Source: Vanrija pseudolonga
Taxonomy: Eukaryota > Basidiomycota > Tremellomycetes > Trichosporonales > Trichosporonaceae
Assembly (NCBI RefSeq): GCF_020906515.1
Contig: NC_085853.1
Location: forward strand, 1,922,001-1,986,000
Direction of reading: 5' to 3'
Length of the DNA stretch: 64,000 bases
The notes under the pieces were generated by a model. The model was not told the DNA's origin. It did not search any database and saw nothing but the letters and a program-made list of their open reading frames with translations. Shown here piece after piece: positions 14,748-30,249 of this stretch. Made by a program: the position numbers and the translations under genes. Position 1 is the first letter of the stretch, and each line of letters starts with the position of its first letter.

Positions 14748-17700
14748 TTAAAGTTTGACGTGACCCCTGCGGCGCTGGGCTTTGGCAGTGGTGGTGGTAG
14801 AAGCCGCCGACGCCAAGCTGGGAGTGGCGGACGTGGCTGTGGGAGGTGCAGTTGTTGGCGCCGCGGCTGTTGTAGTGGGCACCGCGGACGTCGGGGCTGC
14901 GGCTGTGGAAGACACAGGCTTTGAGCTGGCCGCAGCAGACGAGGCGGACGAAGCCGCACTGCTAGCGACGGAGGTGCTGCTCGAGGCTGCTGAACTCGAG
15001 CTAGCAGCCGAGCTGGACACCGCCGAGATCGACAGTGGCGCAGCCATCGCGGCAATGTTGGGCTGCCCTGGCGGGTTGACCCAGAAGGTCGACACTCTAC
15101 CGCTGAATCCGCAGAACTCGTCGGGGTTGCCACCGCAGCCCGAATTGCACAACTCGTCGGGGAGCATGACGCTGGTCGGGAGCGAGGGCGCGCAGTAGCA
15201 GTAGTAGAGGAAGACGGAGAAGACGGACGAGCCCTGGCCGGCACACGTGTTACGGCACATGTCTGTCGACATGGCGCGGGACACGAGGACCTGGGGACCG
15301 AGACTCGCGTCGTTGCCAAAGCATCCGACGTAGCCTGGCGCGAAGCCCACGCTCGTGTTGGTGCTGGGCTTGGTCGCGTCAAAGATGCTGACAAAGGTGC
15401 CGGACCCGCCGCAAATCTCGCTTGCGTTGTGCCTGCACGGAGTGGTGCACCCCGCCGCTGGCGCCGGCGCGCCGTAGACGCTTGTCGAGTTCGTGCAGGC
15501 GCAGTTGCCGCCGTAGTTGATCCCCGCGACGGAGTACCCGCGCACATTACACGTCCGCTTGCAGTACGTGATGTCGACGTAGGACGCGTTGACCTGGTAA
15601 CCTGCGTTGGCGAAGAGCGTCGCCGAGTTGGTGAAGCAGCCCTTGGAGGTCGGGTCGGTGGGCGTGTTGTTGCCGCCGCCGGGGGTGGCAGGGTTGGTGA
15701 TAGACGTGTCCCAGATGCTCATGGAGGCGCCGGTGCCACATGTGGCGGTCGAGTCACCGGGGCATACGGCGTTGCACTCGCTGTTGGCCACGGGGTACGC
15801 GAGCGTGTTGGACACGAGCGAGTTGCCGCAGAAGCAGATGCGGCCAGACGACGTACCCGCGTACTTGTAGCCGGCCTCGGCGCAGGTCTTGGCGCACACG
15901 GGATTGGAGATTGTAGCGGCGTTGAGCACCTGTGTCGTGAGGGGGAAGTCGGTGCCCTTGCGGAAACAGCCGACAAAGCCTTGCGCGTTGGGCTTGGGTA
16001 CGATTGAGGCCGAGACGCCCGTGAGCGAGATGTTGTACACTGCCGAGGCGGCGTTGGTGGACGAGCCACAGAACTGGGCCGAGTTGCCGTTACACGCGCC
16101 CGTCATGCACACGGCATCGGGGACCATCTGACTCGGCATGCCGCTGCCGCAGTTGCAGATGCCAGGAGTGCGCAGAGCCATGAGCGAGTAGCCAGCCGCG
16201 GCGCAGTACTGCGCGCAGTTCTCGATCGTCATGGCCGAAGTGGGTAGGTAGACCTTGTTAATGACGGCCGTGCCGTCGTAGTAGCATCCGATGAAGCCCT
16301 TGACGCCGTTGTTAGCGCTCAGGTACGGCGTGTAGACGTCCATGTAGGCCGCTCCGCCGCACGACTGCGAGGCGTCGCCGGTGCACGGAGTCGTGGTGCA
16401 CAGCGCGGATGGGGCACGAACGGCGCCAGTAAGCGCTGGGCCACAGTAGCAGTACCGCCCATTCAAGACGCCGGCGTATGTTGCCCCCAGGTTGAAGCAC
16501 TCGCTCTGGCACAGGGCGGGGGTAAGGTAGTTGTTTCCGTACAGCACCGTCGGGAGGATGTGGGTCGAGGTATCGGCGTAGCACCCGACCCAGCCCTTGG
16601 GCTTGACCGGCGCACCGACGCCGACCGTGCTGTAGACGCTCTGCGCCTGGGGTCCGCCACACTTCTGGGCTGAGTTGCCGTTGCAGGCCGACGAACATGA
16701 CGAGGCGGGGAGGGTGCCGCCGGTGCCAACCCACGCGTTGCCACAGTTGCACGTGTTTCCGGCGTAAAGGCCCGCGAGGGAGAAGCCGAGCTCCTTGCAG
16801 CCCGAGGTGCATGCCTCGACGGTGAGAGCGGTGAACTTCCACGTGCCACCGCTGAGGCCCTTGCCCGTCGCGTCCGAGTAGCAGCCGGTGAGCGCGCCAC
16901 TGGCAGACGCTGACGGCGCGGCAGACGAGGTAGATGAAGCTGGAATCGAGGCGGAGGCTGAGGTGGACGACGGCGTTGCAGACGTGGTAGTGGGCTTGGT
17001 CACGGGCCAGATGTCGACGTAGCCGGATCCGCCACACGTCAGAGTGCTGTTTCCCGGACACAACGCCTTGCAGAACGTGGGTGCTGGGTAGCGAGGCGTC
17101 GCAGGAGCCGCCTTGCCGCAGTAGCAGTTGCTGCCCTGGGTACCGGCGTACAAGTAGTTGAACTGGGCGCAACCGGCGATACACGTCGCCGGGGTCATCT
17201 TGGGGTCGGAGAAGGTGTAGTCGTTGAAGGGCAAAGCTGCTGCCGAACCGGAGTAGCACCCGATCCAGCCGGGGTAGTGGGACGCGTTGAGCTGGGCTAT
17301 GCTGAGGGTGCTCGCTGAGGACAGGTACAGGTCGACGGCGCCGGAAGAGCCACACCACTGGGTAGTGTTACCTGGGCACTTGACATTGCACTCCGAGTCG
17401 GGGAGGTCCTGGCCCAGGTTGAGCGTGCTTCCGCAGATACACGTCACAGTACCAGTCACAGCCGCGTACTTCGCGCCGAGCTCGTAGCAGCCGTCCTTGC
17501 ACAAGTTGGTGGTCATGACGTTGGACACGAACGAGACACCACCGGTGACGGCCAAGCCGCTCGACGGGCGGGCATAGCATCCCTGGAGGCCGGGATCGCG
17601 TGCAATGTCTCCCTTGCTCAAGTCGACACCGGTGATGTTGAAGAACTGGCCGTACCCTGACGAGCCGCACATCTCGGTCGTGTTCCCGCGGCAAGGGACG

Positions 17701-19434
17701 TTGCAATACGAGTCGGGCACGATACCGCCGTCGTACAGTGACGTGTCGTTGCCACACGAGCAGTACAGGCCAGCGCGAATCAATGCCCAGTTGGCCTTCT
17801 TGTCGTAGCAGGCCTGGGTGCACGTCGCGGTGGTCATACCGACCGAAGTGTAGCTGTATGTGGCGCGCGAGAGCAGGCCGTTGGGTGTCGTCACGAGGCA
17901 GCCGGCGTTGAACTGGTCCATCCGGGGTGCGGCAGGCTTGGAGCCAGCCCACCACACTTGAACCGCATTGTCGCCTCCACACAGTTGGGAGCTGTTGCCG
18001 GGACAAGGCAGCGTGCACATGCCTGGGTACACCAAGGCGGTGGGGAGGATGCCGTTTCCGCACGAGCACTTCCATGTACCGGCCGCGCCGCCACGACGGC
18101 TCACCGAAGCATACGTGTAGCCGTTCGCGACGCACGCCGTCTGGCATCGGTCGACAGTGAGGTTCTGGTCGACAAAGTCGAACCACTGGGTCTTGTCAAA
18201 CTCGGACTGCGAGATGAAGCACTCCACAGGGTACCATCCTGGCGCCGTCGGCGGGTTCCAGAGCCTTGGGTCGGGGGTTGGCGCCACAGTCGGGCCCATG
18301 GTCCCCAGCAGACTGGACTGGAGGGGGATGCCTGGAACTGGAGGGTTGCAGGTCGGCTTGGGTCCGGTTGCAGCCCAGATGGGGTTGCATCCAGGCAGGG
18401 CGGAGAGCGCGACGTAGTCTGCCTGGCCGGTCGGCTCCTTCAATTCTCCAGCGACGGGCGGAGTGCATGCCTTTCCTGTCGCGATGTTGTGCGAGGCACC
18501 GAAGATGGGGCAATCCTCGAATGGCAACTCGGCGCCAATGTCGACACAAGTGCCAGATGCGTTGAGCGCAGCGCTGAGGACATCCATGTCCCAGCCGTTG
18601 ACAAAGTCACCGTGGGCACCGTAGCCCGTCATGTCGCCAAACGACCAGATGAGGTGGTTGTCGACCGTGACACCCGGGGCCACATTGTTCGTGTCCCAGG
18701 TTCCCTCGAACATGATCTGGGGGATGCGGATCGGGTGTGTCCATGGGCAATTGCCGTCACGGGGGATGAAGGCACCAGCAGTGGCCGCAGGGTAGGTGAC
18801 GTGCGCGCTGTTCGGGAGCCAGAGGTTGATTCCATCCCAGCACTGGGGGAGGAAGACCTCGACTCGGAGGCCATACGGGCAGTCGCGGCCACACTTGAAG
18901 CCATCGCACTCGAGGGGGTTGTTCAAGTTCTTGTTGACCTGGCATGAGATTTTGACAATCTTGATGTCTTGGGCTGTACGAGTGTTGATTGAGCCACCCA
19001 GCATGCGCATGCCCTTGGGGAACGGGGTGACCTTTTGGACGGGTGAGTTGCGGGCGAGGTGGTAGTAGAACCGGAAGAAGGGCTTCATGGGGATGAAGGG
19101 CTTGGCCAGCTTGGAGTCGTACCAGTACAGCTCTGGCAACCAGTACGCCGACTTGTCGGCCTGGATGGAAACACTCGAACATGTGCCAGCGTTGTATAGG
19201 TCGTAGTTGTACGCTGCTCGGAAGTTGTTGCTGCCTATGTGTCAGCTGTGTATACCCTCGGTACGCACCAAAGATCTTGTGCATGTGCGCCGCCTGCGCG
19301 TTCGGGAAGAGGACTGGGTCCAGTTGTTGGGTGCTCAGCACTTGGATGTTGTCCATGTGCCACGCGTCGGGGGCACCGAACGCGGGCGCCACGAGCGCCG
19401 CGGCGAAGACGATGGCTGAGAGCGGGCTCCACAT
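14748..19434 (-). CDS. Secreted DUF1996 protein with ten tandem WSC domains, 1550 aa
   Basis: The signal peptide MWSPLSAIVFAAALVAPAFG is followed by a DUF1996 domain (residues about 22-300: AAHMHKIFG, CDGFKCGRDCPYGLRVEVF, GTCVDIGAELPFEDC). Ten WSC domains then run from about residue 385 to 1390. Each has the GCY/GCF start, paired internal cysteines (CxCG), a C-PGN or C-GN motif and the final CGG or CGS. WSC domains are eight-cysteine modules found in yeast wall-stress sensors and thought to bind glycans. The last 100 residues are Ala/Ser/Thr-rich and should be O-glycosylated. There is no transmembrane helix or hydrophobic GPI-signal tail: the protein ends AQRRRGHVKL. One 34-nt intron at 19235-19268 is inferred. 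A secreted or wall-bound carbohydrate-binding role is the best guess. Confidence 0.92.
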
Positions 19435-22572: not shown

Positions 22573-24288
22573 TTACGTGATGTCGTTACTCCCCGCGGGA
22601 GACACGCTCTCCTCTGTATGACCTGTCTCATCTTGACTCATATCGCGGTGTTCGGTTGGGTCGTGGCTGACCCCACCAACTTGAGAGTGTGGGCCAAGGG
22701 AGGGGATTGCTGACGTGGAGTCGTCCTCGGTGTCGTCAAGCGTTATCGGCGCCTGCAGTACCGATTCGAGTTCCTCTACAGAGCATTGGAATCCAGACAT
22801 TTCGGTCGAAGGAGGTCTGCCTAGCGCACTGAGGCGTTGTTCCTCGACACCATCGATGTCCTTAAATCGGAGGAGGAGCCCGTCGGTTCGAATACGCTTC
22901 GGACGTGTCGTCGCCACCATCGATCCCGCATCGCCGCCGGTACTTGCTGACCGCCGCTCGTCTAGCGACTTTAGGAACGACCACGCTCCGGTACGATTAA
23001 GGATCCCAACTCCTTTTGAAACACATGTTTTGATTGACGGGGGAATGGAGGAGGGGTCCAACTCAGCGAGTGGAGTCCGTTCCTCGCCAGGCTCGGGCTT
23101 CACGAGACAGTTGGCAAACATCCGAGCCGCCCTCTGCTCCCTGTTCTGCGTGTCCCTCGTCGCCTTGCGGTTAAGTTGGTCGAACAGCTCCATGTCTGTG
23201 AGGGAGCCGAGGAGCCCGCGGAGTCGCGCCGCGTGTTGGTCGACCTCGGTGCGGCGGAAGTGGATCGAGCGCTGGCCGGGACTGGCGTTGAGGCCCATGG
23301 TACGGAACTCGTCGGCGGCGGGTGGCGGGGTGGCGGGTTGTAACCGAGGCCTCGGAGATGGGGGCGGAGTGGAGAATCGCTGAGGGTCGGGCTCGGCCTC
23401 GTGCGAGAGCGGCAGTGACACATTGACGTCCGACTCGTCGACCTTGGCCTCGGCGGGCTGTGGAGTCGGGGCGAGTAGGTCCGGGAGGATTGACGCTGTC
23501 CACTCCGCCACGATGTTGTGCGGGAGAAGGCGTTGCGGTACCTCGAGACTAGAGCTTTCGAGCTTGTTGCTTCTCCGAAGCCGCAGAATCCGAGCATCGT
23601 GCGTGTCTTCGTAGTTCTGAATCGAGGCGGTATAGTCGACAAACACTGCGCGACACTCGGCGAGGATTGCACCGCGGTCGTCGTGGCTGCTTATTGGAGG
23701 CTCTACCCACTGCTCCTCGCTCTCGGCCATATCCCCTAAGCCGTCGTCCACCACGTCGGCATCCCACTCTTCCTCGACCTCATCCAACACGCCCTCGATC
23801 TTCCCTCGGCGGTACTCCATATGGGAGATGACACTGCGTCCCGAGCGCTGTGCACCCGTGAAGCCGTCATACGAGCCCCATTTCAGGCGGGAGCCGAGGC
23901 GGTTAGCCATGGCCTTGTCCTTGTGGCCACTAGCCTCGGCGAACAAGGCTTTGAGTGGCATCTTGAAGCGGCGCTCGTTGTTGCGGTGTGTCTCGCGCTT
24001 CGGCTTGGGCGCGTCGTCTGGCTCGTCGCTCGGCTTGCGCTTGTTGCTACGCGGGGGCGGGGGCTGGCCGGGGAGCTGGAAGGCGAGGAGGGGTGCATCA
24101 GCTGAACGATGGCGGGTGCGGAGTGCGGACGGGAGGGGGTACGAGGAAGGCATGGTGGGCAGATAAGGTGTCACGCTCGACATGGTGGCGAGCGCTGGTG
24201 GAGGGGTGGCGACACGCTCGTCTGGTGGTGTTGGCGGCATGTGCTGTATAAGTGATAACGAGTCCATGATTGACCAGTAGAAGGACAT
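22573..24288 (-). CDS. Unknown intronless protein, 571 aa
   Basis: A single uninterrupted frame runs from the ATG at 24288 (MSFYWSIMDSLSLIQHMPPT) to PAGSNDIT at 22573; a start at 24267 (MDSLSLI) is also possible. The N-terminal 100 residues are Pro/Ser-rich with a basic NKRKPSDEPDDAPKPKRE stretch that could be a nuclear signal. Next come a more conserved-looking segment (RRFKMPLKALFAEASGHKDK, LKWGSYDGFTGAQR, KIEGVLDEVEEEWDADV), phospho-site-like Thr-Pro and Ser-Pro motifs, and a helix-rich region (RLRGLLGSLTDMELFDQLN). It is one of two intron-free long genes here. I do not recognise a domain; a nuclear or regulatory role is only a guess from composition. Confidence 0.75.
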   Translation of the reverse strand: MSFYWSIMDSLSLIQHMPPTPPDERVATPPPALATMSSVTPYLPTMPSSYPLPSALRTRHRSADAPLLAFQLPGQPPPPRSNKRKPSDEPDDAPKPKRETHRNNERRFKMPLKALFAEASGHKDKAMANRLGSRLKWGSYDGFTGAQRSGRSVISHMEYRRGKIEGVLDEVEEEWDADVVDDGLGDMAESEEQWVEPPISSHDDRGAILAECRAVFVDYTASIQNYEDTHDARILRLRRSNKLESSSLEVPQRLLPHNIVAEWTASILPDLLAPTPQPAEAKVDESDVNVSLPLSHEAEPDPQRFSTPPPSPRPRLQPATPPPAADEFRTMGLNASPGQRSIHFRRTEVDQHAARLRGLLGSLTDMELFDQLNRKATRDTQNREQRAARMFANCLVKPEPGEERTPLAELDPSSIPPSIKTCVSKGVGILNRTGAWSFLKSLDERRSASTGGDAGSMVATTRPKRIRTDGLLLRFKDIDGVEEQRLSALGRPPSTEMSGFQCSVEELESVLQAPITLDDTEDDSTSAIPSLGPHSQVGGVSHDPTEHRDMSQDETGHTEESVSPAGSNDIT

Positions 24289-24493: not shown

Positions 24494-24624
24494 CTAGCAC
24501 TTGCACTCTCCCGGCTTGCACTTGCAGTTCTTGCACGAGCACGAGGTGCACTGGGCGTTGGTGGGGGCAGTCTGGCGCCAATGCCCGCGGTGGTAGGGTG
24601 GAGGCCTACCTGGGTGGCGATCAT
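24494..24624 (-). CDS. Metallothionein-like peptide 1 (7 Cys, 30 aa), CKC-rich
   Basis: Two short exons encode it: MIATQ (24610-24624), a 38-nt intron (24572-24609, GTAGGC to GCCAG), then 25 codons and a stop (24494-24571). Exon 2 reads TAPTNAQ followed by the cysteine block CTSCSCKNCKCKPGECKC. Seven cysteines in 18 residues, arranged as CxC and CxxC with interspersed lysines and no aromatic residues after exon 1, is the signature of a metallothionein. Such peptides bind Cu(I), Zn or Cd through thiolates in the cytosol and buffer or detoxify metal. The lysine-flanked CKC pattern differs from its neighbour and recalls animal-type or cadmium-binding peptides. A 36-nt intron-like sequence lies in the leader at 24644-24679. 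Confidence 0.8.
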
Positions 24625-24643
24625 GTTGTGTGTGTGTGTGTGT
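24625..24643. repeat. (TG)n microsatellite in the leader of metallothionein-like gene 1
   Basis: A short dinucleotide run lies directly before the ATG. On the coding strand it reads as a CACACA-type leader ending CAAC before the start codon. Confidence 0.8.
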
Positions 24644-24679
24644 CTGCAGTTAGCGTCGGTGGGTGGCAAGGCGACTCAC
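24644..24679 (-). other. Probable 5'-UTR intron of metallothionein-like gene 1
   Basis: On the minus strand the 36 nt begin GTGAGTCGCC and end GCTAACTGCAG, a textbook local intron of the commonest size. No ATG is present in the roughly 60 bases upstream of it, so it should lie in the untranslated leader. Confidence 0.6.
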
Positions 24680-25108
24680 TCGTAGGTAGATGGGTGGGAG
24701 TAGTGATGAGAAGCAGGCGGCGTCCTCGGGGCTTTAAGTATCCATCCGCATCTCCTCCCCAACCCAGGATCTAGCGTGCGCACGGCTCGTATCGTACCCG
24801 AGGCTTCGCACCCTCCCGAAGCGCGAGGCCAGAGGGAGGCTCAGTTGCTGGGTGGCAACGATGACAACGAGCGCACAGTAGCTCCGGGGCTTATCGCGAG
24901 CAGTCAAACGCCGCAACTGGTATATCGCTGACGGGCCTGACATTGCACTCTCAGGAGTAGCGCCTCTGATAACTAGCTGCATACTGGCGTCTCTCATAGC
25001 GTAATTCCTCGATAGTTTACCCGAGTCTAGGATACGGGCGATGATGATGTTGTGGGGCAGCCGGCTGGCTAGCCGGGGCGGCCGGGGCGGAGGCGGCCCG
25101 CTGCATCA

Positions 25109-25288
25109 CTACTTGGCGCTGCAGCACGAGCAGCCGGAAGCGCACTTGCAGCCGTCGCCGCCGGTGCAGCCCTGGGCGCAGCCGCAGTCGTCGCCGTCGT
25201 GGGCGGTGATTGGGGCCTGGGGTGGTGTTAGCGCCGTCGCTGGCGGGGTCGGGTCGGGTCGTCGTACGATGACGGTCTTGGTGAACAT
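25109..25288 (-). CDS. Metallothionein-like peptide 2 (8 Cys, 42 aa), Neurospora/Agaricus copper type
   Basis: Exon 1 (25268-25288) encodes MFTKTVI. A 51-nt intron (25217-25267, GTACGA to CCCCAG with GCTAAC) follows, then exon 2 (25109-25216) with 35 codons: APITAHDGDD followed by CGCAQGCTGGDGCKCASG and CSCCSAK. Eight cysteines and the DCGC...CxCxSGCSC arrangement closely follow the small fungal copper metallothioneins known from Neurospora and Agaricus, which bind Cu(I) and are induced by copper. The exon-1/phase-0-intron layout is the same as in the genes on either side. A second intron-like sequence sits in the leader at 25299-25340. Identification from the cysteine spacing is strong; the metal bound is inferred. 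Confidence 0.83.
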   Translation of the reverse strand: MFTKTVIVRRPDPTPPATALTPPQAPITAHDGDDCGCAQGCTGGDGCKCASGCSCCSAK

Positions 25289-25298
25289 TGTGTCGTTG

Positions 25299-25340
25299 CT
25301 GCCGTCAGCTGCGCACGAGGGGGGAAGGGAGAGAGCTCAC
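25299..25340 (-). other. Probable 5'-UTR intron of metallothionein-like gene 2
   Basis: The 42 nt read GTGAGCTCTC...GCTGACGGCAG on the minus strand, with donor, branch site and acceptor as in the coding introns. It lies ten bases before the ATG. Confidence 0.55.
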
Positions 25341-25789
25341 TGGTTGCTTGGGGTGGGTGTTGTTGGTGCGAGTCGTGGGGTGCGGTTTAGCGGCGGTGGG
25401 ATACCTAAGTATACCGCGGGTGCACGACTAGCGGCACTGTTTCGCCTCGAAAGCCGACAGTCCGAAAGCTGTCGTCAGGCTCAAGTCGTCGCGGCGCTGT
25501 CGAGTTGGTTCTCGCTCGTGCCATGGTCACGAGGTCATGATGCAGCCGGCCTGGTCTCCACCGCATCGTGTAGACAAGCTGAACACGAGGCCGCAACGAG
25601 GCCGCCCAACCTTCGGAGTGAGCGATTTAATCATGCCCCTCTGGGCAACGTGCCGGCGATCCCTCTACCCCGACATGACGCATCAGTGGAGTCAGTGGAA
25701 AGCCGACGAGAGGAGTAGTAGGTACATGCTGTCGGAGTACGGGTCGGTCTGGTTGTTGTCGTCGGGATGGTGGAGCGCACGCTCACACC

Positions 25790-25962
25790 CTACTTGGCGT
25801 CGGGCTTCGCAGTGCCGCAGCCGCATCCGCAGCCACCGCAGCCGTCGTCGTCGTCGTCATCATCGCCGTCGGCCGCGTTGACGGGGTAGGCAGGCTTGGG
25901 GGTCTGGTGGCGTCAGTGGGGCCGCGTCCTCAACCTACAGAGTAGTAGAAGGGCGCGAGCAT
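25790..25962 (-). CDS. Metallothionein-like peptide 3 (4 Cys, Asp-rich, 45 aa)
   Basis: Exon 1 (25939-25962) encodes MLAPFYYS. A 35-nt intron (25904-25938, GTAGGT to CACCAG with CTGAC) leads to exon 2 (25790-25903) with 37 codons: TPKPAYPVNAADG, a run of seven aspartates, then GCGGCGCGCGTAKPDAK. The four closely spaced cysteines in a Gly-only context plus the acidic run suggest a metal-binding peptide, though it has fewer cysteines than standard metallothioneins. The gene structure, strand and proximity match the two other members, which argues for common descent with divergence of the metal-binding block. An alternative is a small acidic peptide unrelated to metal. Confidence 0.6.
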
Positions 25963-27292: not shown

Positions 27293-28000
27293 ATGAAGCC
27301 CACTACCTCTGTCCTGGCGTCCCTCTCCCTCCTCGCCCTCGCGGCCCTTGCGCCCGCCGCGCCGGTTCACCACGGCGTCGTCAAGCGCTGGTGGGGCCAG
27401 AACCTGGGCTACGATGCCATCGCGTCTGCCGGCGCCGACGACGGTGGCAGCGACGTCGGTTACTCCGACACGAGCGCCTCCGCTAGTGACTACGACGTCG
27501 TGACCGTCTCCTTCACTGCTGGCAGCGAAGCTAGCTCGAGCTCCGCCCCCGCGATCCCGCTCCCGTCCGCCGGTGACCTCGTCGCTGCGCCTGCCCCTGC
27601 TCCCTCGCCGTCGGCTTCGGCTGCCGTCAACGCCAGCGCTGGAGGCCACCCCACCCCTGTCGGCGAGACGTACACTGGCACGGCGACGTTCTACGATGTC
27701 TCGAACCCGTCCGACAATGGCGGCGCGGCAGCTGGCTCGGTCGCGTGCTCGGGCCACCTCTACTCGGACGGCGACAGCATTGTCGCGGTCAACATCCCGC
27801 AGTTTGCCGGCTCGTGCGGCCGCACCGTCTTCCTCATCGACACCGAGACGGGCAACACGGCCACGGCGACCGCCGTCGACGAGTGCGCGTCATGCCCCTC
27901 CGCTGGCGACCTCGACCTCGTCACCAACCTGTGGAGCCAGCTCCACAACGGTAACACGGACGCCGGCGTCTTCAAGCTCCAGTGGTACTTCACCTCGTAA
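27293..28000 (+). CDS. Secreted double-psi beta-barrel (RlpA-like) protein A, 235 aa
   Basis: This intronless gene starts at MKPTTSVLASLSLLALAALA, a clear signal peptide. A Kex2-type KR dipeptide at residues 30-31 (HHGVVKRWW) suggests a short propeptide. Residues of about 40-120 are Ser/Ala/Pro-rich. The C-terminal 115 residues form a DPBB domain: TGTATFYDVSN, AGSVACSGHLYS, FAGSCGRTVFLID, NTATATAVDECASC and VFKLQWYF. This family includes fungal papain-inhibitor and expansin-like proteins; several are wall-associated or effector-like, and no enzymatic activity can be assumed. It is a paralogue of the convergent gene at 29560-30249: the conserved NTATATAVDEC and LWxQLHNG blocks align well. Confidence 0.88.
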   Translation: MKPTTSVLASLSLLALAALAPAAPVHHGVVKRWWGQNLGYDAIASAGADDGGSDVGYSDTSASASDYDVVTVSFTAGSEASSSSAPAIPLPSAGDLVAAPAPAPSPSASAAVNASAGGHPTPVGETYTGTATFYDVSNPSDNGGAAAGSVACSGHLYSDGDSIVAVNIPQFAGSCGRTVFLIDTETGNTATATAVDECASCPSAGDLDLVTNLWSQLHNGNTDAGVFKLQWYFTS

Positions 28001-29559: not shown

Positions 29560-30249
29560 CTACTGGAACGACCAGGTGGCGGTGAAGATACCGTCCTCGG
29601 TGTGGCCGTTGTGGAGCTGCTGCCAGAGCGAGGGGGTGAGGTCGATGCCGTTCTTGCCGCACGACGTGCACTCGTCAACAGCGGTGGCAGTGGCAGTGTT
29701 GCCGGTGGTCGTGTCCTTGATGATGACAGTCTTGCCGCACGAGCCGGGGAACTGGGCCGAGTTGATGGCGATGATGGCGTCGCTGTTCGAGTACTTCTGG
29801 CTAGAGCACGCGACCGAGCCGGCAGAGTTGCCCTCGTTCTCGGCGGGGTTGGTGATGTCGTAGAAGGTGGCGTCGCCGGTGAAGGTCTCGCCCGAGGGCT
29901 GGGCACCCGAGTTGGAGCTCTGGGGCTGGGCAGCGAGGTTCTGGCCGGGGGCGGCCGAGCCCGAGTCCTGGCTCTGGTTGGCGGCCGAGTCGGAGCCGGC
30001 GTTGGAGCCAGAGTTGTCCGAGTTGTCCGAGTTGTCCGAGGGCGCGGCGGCGGCAGGGGTGGGCGAGGCGTCCGAGTTGTCGCCGTTGTCGGTGGGCGTG
30101 GCGACCTCGGACGACGAGCGCCAGCCGCCGTGGCGGTGGCCACCGTGGCCGTGGTGCTTGTGGCCGCCGTTGCCGTTCCAGTCGGGCATGGGGGCGGCGA
30201 CGGCGAGCGAGGCGGCAATGGCGAAGAGGGCAAGGGTCTTGGCGAGCAT
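29560..30249 (-). CDS. Secreted double-psi beta-barrel (RlpA-like) protein B with His/Gly-rich N-terminus, 229 aa
   Basis: This intronless gene has the signal peptide MLAKTLALFAIAASLAVAA. The mature start carries a histidine/glycine-rich stretch (GGHKHHGHGGHRHGG) able in principle to bind metal ions. A Ser/Asn/Asp/Gln-rich linker with repeated DNSDNS units follows. The DPBB domain (residues about 120-229) shows TGDATFYDITN, AGSVACSSQKYS, PGSCGKTVIIKDT, NTATATAVDECTSC and GIFTATWSFQ. The start at 30249 is chosen because the signal peptide begins there; an open stretch upstream is the leader. Its convergent paralogue lacks the His-rich block. A TATA box and a GA-repeat leader precede the gene. 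Confidence 0.88.
   Translation of the reverse strand: MLAKTLALFAIAASLAVAAPMPDWNGNGGHKHHGHGGHRHGGWRSSSEVATPTDNGDNSDASPTPAAAAPSDNSDNSDNSGSNAGSDSAANQSQDSGSAAPGQNLAAQPQSSNSGAQPSGETFTGDATFYDITNPAENEGNSAGSVACSSQKYSNSDAIIAINSAQFPGSCGKTVIIKDTTTGNTATATAVDECTSCGKNGIDLTPSLWQQLHNGHTEDGIFTATWSFQ

Follow-up and report, generated by a model that had tools for sequence, protein, structure and literature searches.

The fungi Cryptococcus neoformans and Tremella mesenterica are related to Vanrija pseudolonga and belong to the same class. The metallothioneins (MTs) CnMT1, CnMT2 and TmMT are single long proteins of 122, 183 and 257 aa that consist of several fused boxes (PMC4755600). The same study points out, naming genes of Cryptococcus, that annotation easily misses Cys-rich genes when they are small and split (PMC4755600). 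Thus, basidiomycete yeasts may have larger metal-tolerance repertoires than current counts indicate. Moreover, the Agaricomycete MTs AcMT1/2, LbMT, HcMT, PiMT and their kin carry the heptaCys motif C-x4-C-x-C-x2,3-C-x-C-x4-C-x-C (PMC12508003). For the Family 8 copper MTs of N. crassa and A. bisporus (1t2y), we used the pattern [CXC]-X5-[CXC]-X3-[CXC]-X2-C. Here, we describe an array of three predicted mini-genes, MT1, MT2 and MT3, which lie in head-to-tail order within 1.5 kb of the minus strand of a 64-kb stretch of the V. pseudolonga genome (the window). In our view, the genes are of a known sort and it is their arrangement that is new.

Gene models and annotation status of the array

On re-splicing, the coordinates, the strand, the peptide lengths (30, 42 and 45 aa) and the Cys numbers (7, 8 and 4) given for the three genes in the initial annotation were recovered exactly to the base (Table 1). 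The common layout that it had claimed was likewise reproduced, with first exons of 5, 7 and 8 codons in MT1, MT2 and MT3, respectively, each followed by a phase-0 intron (38, 51 and 35 nt). The Cys exons comprise 78, 108 and 114 nt including the stop codon, and a Thr/Ala-Pro segment comes right after the intron in all three genes. The sequence thus supports the view that MT1, MT2 and MT3 are three real-looking miniature genes sharing one layout.

Table 1 Coordinates of the array and of the surrounding features (positions in the window unless C1 is given)
Feature	Position	Strand	Description
MT1 gene	24494..24624	-	CDS 24624-24610 + 24571-24494; 30 aa, 7 Cys; C-x2-C-x-C-x2-C-x-C-x4-C-x-C
MT1 intron	24572..24609	-	38 nt, phase 0, without CTRAY branch site
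ATACTTA	24735..24741	-	-117 of MT1 start; TATA-like, suggestive only
MT2 gene	25109..25288	-	CDS 25288-25268 + 25216-25109; 42 aa, 8 Cys; CxC-x3-C-x5-CxC-x3-CxCC
MT2 intron	25217..25267	-	51 nt, phase 0, CTAAC branch site
ATACTTA	25406..25412	-	-124 of MT2 start
MT3 gene	25790..25962	-	CDS 25962-25939 + 25903-25790; 45 aa, 4 Cys; Asp run, then CGGCGCGC
MT3 intron	25904..25938	-	35 nt, phase 0, CTGAC branch site
237-aa frame	25005-25715	+	lies over MT2
564-aa frame	22576-24267	-	downstream of MT1; no Pfam match
First kiwellin/barwin-like protein	27293-28000	+	secreted-looking; tail-to-tail pair (PF24300 and PF00967)
Second kiwellin/barwin-like protein	29560-30249	-	secreted-looking; tail-to-tail pair (PF24300 and PF00967)
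DUF1996/WSC frame	14751-19241	-	1497 codons
Copper-fist match (L011)	C1:813177-813290		82 bits

When all splice models with an ATG within the 400 nt before exon 2 and a GT[AG]...AG intron of 30-90 nt were enumerated, a single model was left for MT2 and two models each for MT1 and MT3, the two models of a gene sharing the donor. The MT1 intron measures 38 or 59 nt, the alternative in-frame acceptor lying 21 nt further on and yielding a 23-aa peptide, and the MT3 intron measures 35 or 44 nt, with the alternative in-frame acceptor 9 nt further on. The CTRAY branch site ends 10 nt before the end of the intron in MT2 and 8 nt before it in MT3, and a search of the MT1 intron for this site found none. 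No Met lies upstream in the unspliced Cys frames of MT1 and MT3 and therefore, any ATG-started reading of these two genes requires splicing. MT2 could also be read unspliced, as no stop codon interrupts the frame within its 51-nt intron, and retention would give a 59-aa reading.

Introns of 35-39 nt are short for a basidiomycete. In the window, this length is the most frequent one among intron-like stretches, with 36 occurrences compared with a simulated mean of 1.8 (5 windows), and 200 kb of control DNA from the genome likewise have their highest count in this bin (57 occurrences, a count made without simulation). Since this bin is the commonest, 35 nt for MT3 and 38 nt for MT1 are ordinary intron lengths here.

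The suggestion of the initial annotation that the genes may be unannotated holds up. The protein database that was searched includes the neighbour proteins P0001 and P0006 of the same contig (2,724,646 bases, as C5, which carries the window), both of which are single-exon. A search of this database with MT2 yielded no entry sharing three words, and an alignment of all three peptides to it gave four word-sharing candidates, none of them at E <= 10. MT1-MT3 thus appear to be absent from a gene set in which their same-contig neighbours are present, and they are probably unannotated. Searches of the own genome with exon 2 of each gene recovered only the respective query, one candidate each having passed the first look. 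The own-genome search with the N. crassa MT came back empty, missing MT2 as well, and is uninformative. Among the matches listed in a literature search for metallothionein and Trichosporon or Trichosporonales, judged by title or abstract opening, there was no description of Trichosporonales metallothioneins.

Tests against chance and probable metallothionein identity

Two-exon mini-ORFs were collected in the window by a scan that ignores position, but whose limits (4-10 codons for the exon with the ATG, 33-65 nt for the intron and 25-60 aa for the whole peptide) were chosen after the genes had been seen; exactly MT1, MT2 and MT3, i.e. 3/56, passed a loose bar of at least 4 Cys and at least 2 CxC. 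Order-2 Markov windows gave a mean of 0.11 candidates at this bar, with one candidate in 22/200 windows and more than one in 0/200. At a strict bar of at least 6 Cys and at least 3 CxC, MT1 and MT2 remained in the window and the 200 Markov windows held one candidate in total. As a real-sequence control, 200 kb of the same genome were taken at regular steps (loci L013-L032, 10 stretches of C1 and 10 of C5). Among the 209 two-exon candidates found there, three passed the loose bar and none the strict one. MT1 and MT2 thus exceed chance and stand out clearly. By its Cys count alone, MT3 does not, since 3/209 control candidates pass the loose bar. When a CTNA branch site was required, 16 candidates were left in the window, of which MT2 and MT3 passed the loose bar and MT1 was lost, a result that counts against MT1.

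The GC3 values of the genes are 0.93 (MT1), 0.95 (MT2) and 0.84 (MT3), as compared with 0.79 in three neighbouring frames (1025 codons), and TGC is used for 19/19 Cys codons. When codon choice was tested against the usage of the neighbouring frames, 0/5000 background resamplings reached the score of each gene. The synonymous codon choice of all three genes is gene-like. Together with the mini-ORF scan, the codon tests argue against the view that the Cys frames are ORFs that arose by chance in a GC-rich sequence or lie antisense to a plus-strand gene, which we consider very improbable. It is true that the GC content of the window is 0.617, that long plus-strand open frames overlap the genes and that MT1 and MT3 depend on predicted introns. 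Cys-run single-exon frames do occur in the control DNA as well: four single-exon mini-ORFs with at least 6 Cys and at least 3 CxC were found in the 200 kb, 4/4 of which contain CCC or CxC repeats, and two were found in the window, one of them being the unspliced MT2. However, the 237-aa plus-strand frame that lies over MT2 has no Pfam match.

With respect to composition, MT1 (7/30 Cys, no F, Y, W or H) and MT2 (8/42 Cys, one F and one H) fall within the metallothioneins in the broad sense, i.e. very small proteins that are rich in Cys arranged in CxC or CC pairs and have few aromatic residues. Both are most likely short single-box MTs. Metallothioneins bind Cu, Zn or Cd by means of their Cys thiolates, and metal often induces them. 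MT3, with 4/45 Cys, 3 Tyr, 1 Phe and 9 Asp, makes a weaker case, and a metallothionein function can be assigned to it only weakly. Thus, the label "metallothionein-like" that had been given to all three peptides suits the first two well and the third less well. Family models did not help in this respect: none of the NCBIfam models matched MT1, MT2 or MT3 (0/3), and Pfam gave no match for MT1 and MT2 and solely DUF6587 at E 4.2 for MT3. As the MTs of N. crassa and A. bisporus likewise match no Pfam model, the silence of Pfam for MT1-MT3 is uninformative.

We propose with fair confidence that the array consists of three very short intron-split genes in head-to-tail order, two of which would encode single-box MTs. 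The CxC-rich thiolates of MT1 and MT2 may enclose a single cluster of several Cu(I) (or Zn/Cd) ions, thereby buffering and detoxifying excess metal. MT3 would probably be a diverged relative of MT2, and the four Cys packed behind its acidic stretch could accommodate a single metal ion or a small cluster of Cu. The gene structures, the excess of MT1 and MT2 over chance, the codon choice, the Cys spacings and the copper-fist gene are what the analysis shows, and transcription, splicing and location of MT1-MT3, the binding and choice of metal and the regulation are what we infer for this model.

Relatedness, regulation and neighbourhood

The initial annotation had suggested that the three genes arose by local duplication and became specialised for different metals, a specialisation that is plausible as a hypothesis. 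In peptide shuffle tests, which overstate significance for clustered, low-complexity peptides such as these, the score was reached by 0/2000 shuffles for MT2-MT3, 23/2000 for MT1-MT2 and 46/2000 for MT1-MT3. Local duplication is thus plausible for MT2 and MT3 and unproven for MT1, and a non-overlapping comparison of the upstream DNA gave no pair above the shuffles (MT2-MT3 16/200, MT1-MT2 138/200, MT1-MT3 15/200). High scores of 292 and 258 for whole "units" were discarded as an artefact because the compared units overlapped each other. The direct repeats in the stretch form short families only (15-24 nt). Residual tandem-repeat DNA was also considered and rejected, the upstream DNA not being above the shuffles and the repeats measuring merely 15-24 nt.

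The null result for the upstream DNA, the marginal peptide similarity of MT1 to the other two, the shortness of the repeats and the fact that the Cys spacing differs in each of the three peptides are what would be expected if the genes did not descend from one another. In that case, a short-exon, phase-0 layout would be common in the genome and the Cys boxes would have arisen or arrived separately. We regard such separate origins as rather unlikely, since a phase-0 intron lies 5-8 codons from the start and before the Thr/Ala-Pro segment in 3/3 genes, the start-to-start distances along the array are nearly equal (664 and 674 nt) and no shuffle reached the MT2-MT3 score. Among the arguments for common descent, that of the shared layout is the strongest.

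It has also to be considered that only MT1 and MT2 are metallothioneins and that the cluster is really a pair, MT3 being either a small acidic peptide without relation to them or a copy of MT2 in decay. To this alternative we assign somewhat less than an even chance. It would agree with the low Cys content and the aromatic residues of MT3, with the control mini-ORFs that reach its Cys bar, with its GC3, which is the lowest of the three, and with the upstream sequences. ATACTTA, a TATA-like element, precedes MT1 and MT2 at nearly the same distance from the start codon and is missing from the 501 nt that precede MT3. However, MT3 passed the codon test as clearly as the other genes, its branch site is good, its intron falls into the commonest length class, and its likeness to MT2 lies above all 2000 shuffles, though both peptides are of low complexity. 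Moreover, MT3 is located on the same strand and is separated from MT2 by 501 nt, which is close to the length of the MT2-MT1 spacer (484 nt).

Each gene of the array probably has its own promoter. An upstream scan with Ace1-, Cuf1- and MRE-like patterns gave scattered matches without clear meaning and no copper-box motif that stands out. A copper-fist search of the genome yielded one match (82 bits; Table 1). The matching frame contains KGRP, and Cys clusters occur both in the matching segment and in the next open segment of the same frame, the latter with CTCGDGCECPGC among them. By eye and unaligned, these clusters recall those described for CnCuf1; Cryptococcus has a single, dual-role Cuf1, which occupies the CMT1 promoter when copper is high (PMC13343922). 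By analogy with Cuf1 of Cryptococcus, the copper-fist factor of this genome would be a likely regulator of the array. A search of the genome for phytochelatin synthase gave no match, but is uninformative because none was obtained in the control genomes either.

The window contains 34 long frames (at least 200 codons), and a Pfam scan of 23 of them revealed no metal transporter or other recognised metal-handling family, the one exception being a ribosome-biogenesis protein with an iron-sulphur-like Fer4_RLI domain. Further features include the 564-aa frame next to MT1 and the pair of kiwellin/barwin-like proteins (Table 1), the second of which contains a segment rich in His close to the N-terminus. 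Relatives of this pair were observed on contigs of 23,999 bases, which are probably one contig: P0004 is 77% identical to the first protein and P0007 looks, on visual inspection, almost identical to the second. The best named matches of the neighbour protein P0001 are from Vanrija albida (55%) and V. humicola (46%), the latter being a barwin-type protein and thus perhaps a match to the paralogue. Moreover, a 1497-codon open frame in the window encodes a DUF1996 domain and, after it, 10 stretches of WSC domain.

Comparison with known metallothioneins

The Cys spacings of MT1-MT3 match none of the three tested known fungal classes exactly, and MT3 fits none of the tested fungal Cys-spacing patterns. 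A PDB search with MT2 (E up to 10) gave three matches with weak scores, namely the Ec protein I/II entries 2l61 (E 0.037) and 2mfp (E 0.27) and the cadmium-metallothionein 6qk5 (E 1.2). MT2 shares an identical Cys spacing with 2l61, the Ec protein of wheat, over its first five Cys and with 6qk5, a cadmium-metallothionein domain of a snail, over its first seven Cys. This likeness to proteins from other kingdoms is probably convergent. No PDB match was obtained with MT1, and MT3 gave one acidic, low-complexity match at E 5.8.

MT2 had been described in the initial annotation as the Neurospora/Agaricus copper type. This label has to be dropped in its exact form because the full Family 8 pattern is matched by 0/3 peptides. 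What MT2 has in common with the MTs of N. crassa and A. bisporus is the inner C-x5-CxC-x3-CxC, whereas it differs by an additional N-terminal CxC-x3, the CxCC end and a total of 8 Cys. In alignments to the N. crassa MT, the score was reached by 3/2000 shuffles of MT2, 330/2000 of MT3 and 772/2000 of MT1, and the respective numbers for the A. bisporus MT are 86/2000 for MT2, 126/2000 for MT1 and 1101/2000 for MT3. As whole peptides, MT1 and MT3 are thus not close to either of these MTs.

The full heptaCys motif is likewise matched by 0/3 peptides, and an exact heptaCys label for MT1 was rejected since its first spacing is 2 and not 4. The last six Cys of MT1 (C-x-C-x2-C-x-C-x4-C-x-C) do fit the motif of the Agaricomycete MTs (PMC12508003), a likeness that is absent from the initial annotation. 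MT1 also resembles these MTs in being a small Cys-rich peptide encoded by a gene with a short intron in a genome with more than one MT gene, and it differs from them by its first spacing, which is C-x2-C instead of C-x4-C, and by its two exons, as AcMT2 has three and AcMT1 four (PMC12508003).

With respect to the long MTs of the Tremellales, the full TmMT unit spacing is matched by 0/3 peptides, but CKCKPGECKC of MT1 recalls CSCPPGXCXC of the TmMT unit, and the TmMT exons of 63-105 bp have about the size of the Cys exons of the array (PMC4755600). Several 7-Cys boxes are fused in each CnMT or TmMT protein (PMC4755600), whereas in the array there is one box per gene. Three Cys boxes within one gene plan and 1.5 kb of DNA make it possible to test box spacing against metal preference within one genome. 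Moreover, the array could show how long fused MTs arose from short ones. It is conceivable, although improbable in our opinion, that the array corresponds, in unfused form, to the long Tremellales MTs. One ancestral module consisting of a short intron and a Cys exon of about 80-110 nt would have been copied locally and its copies would have persisted as separate genes while their Cys chemistry diverged, the boxes would serve different metals or metal loads, and MT3 would represent a new acidic tetra-Cys type, the same module having been fused into multi-box proteins in Tremella and Cryptococcus.
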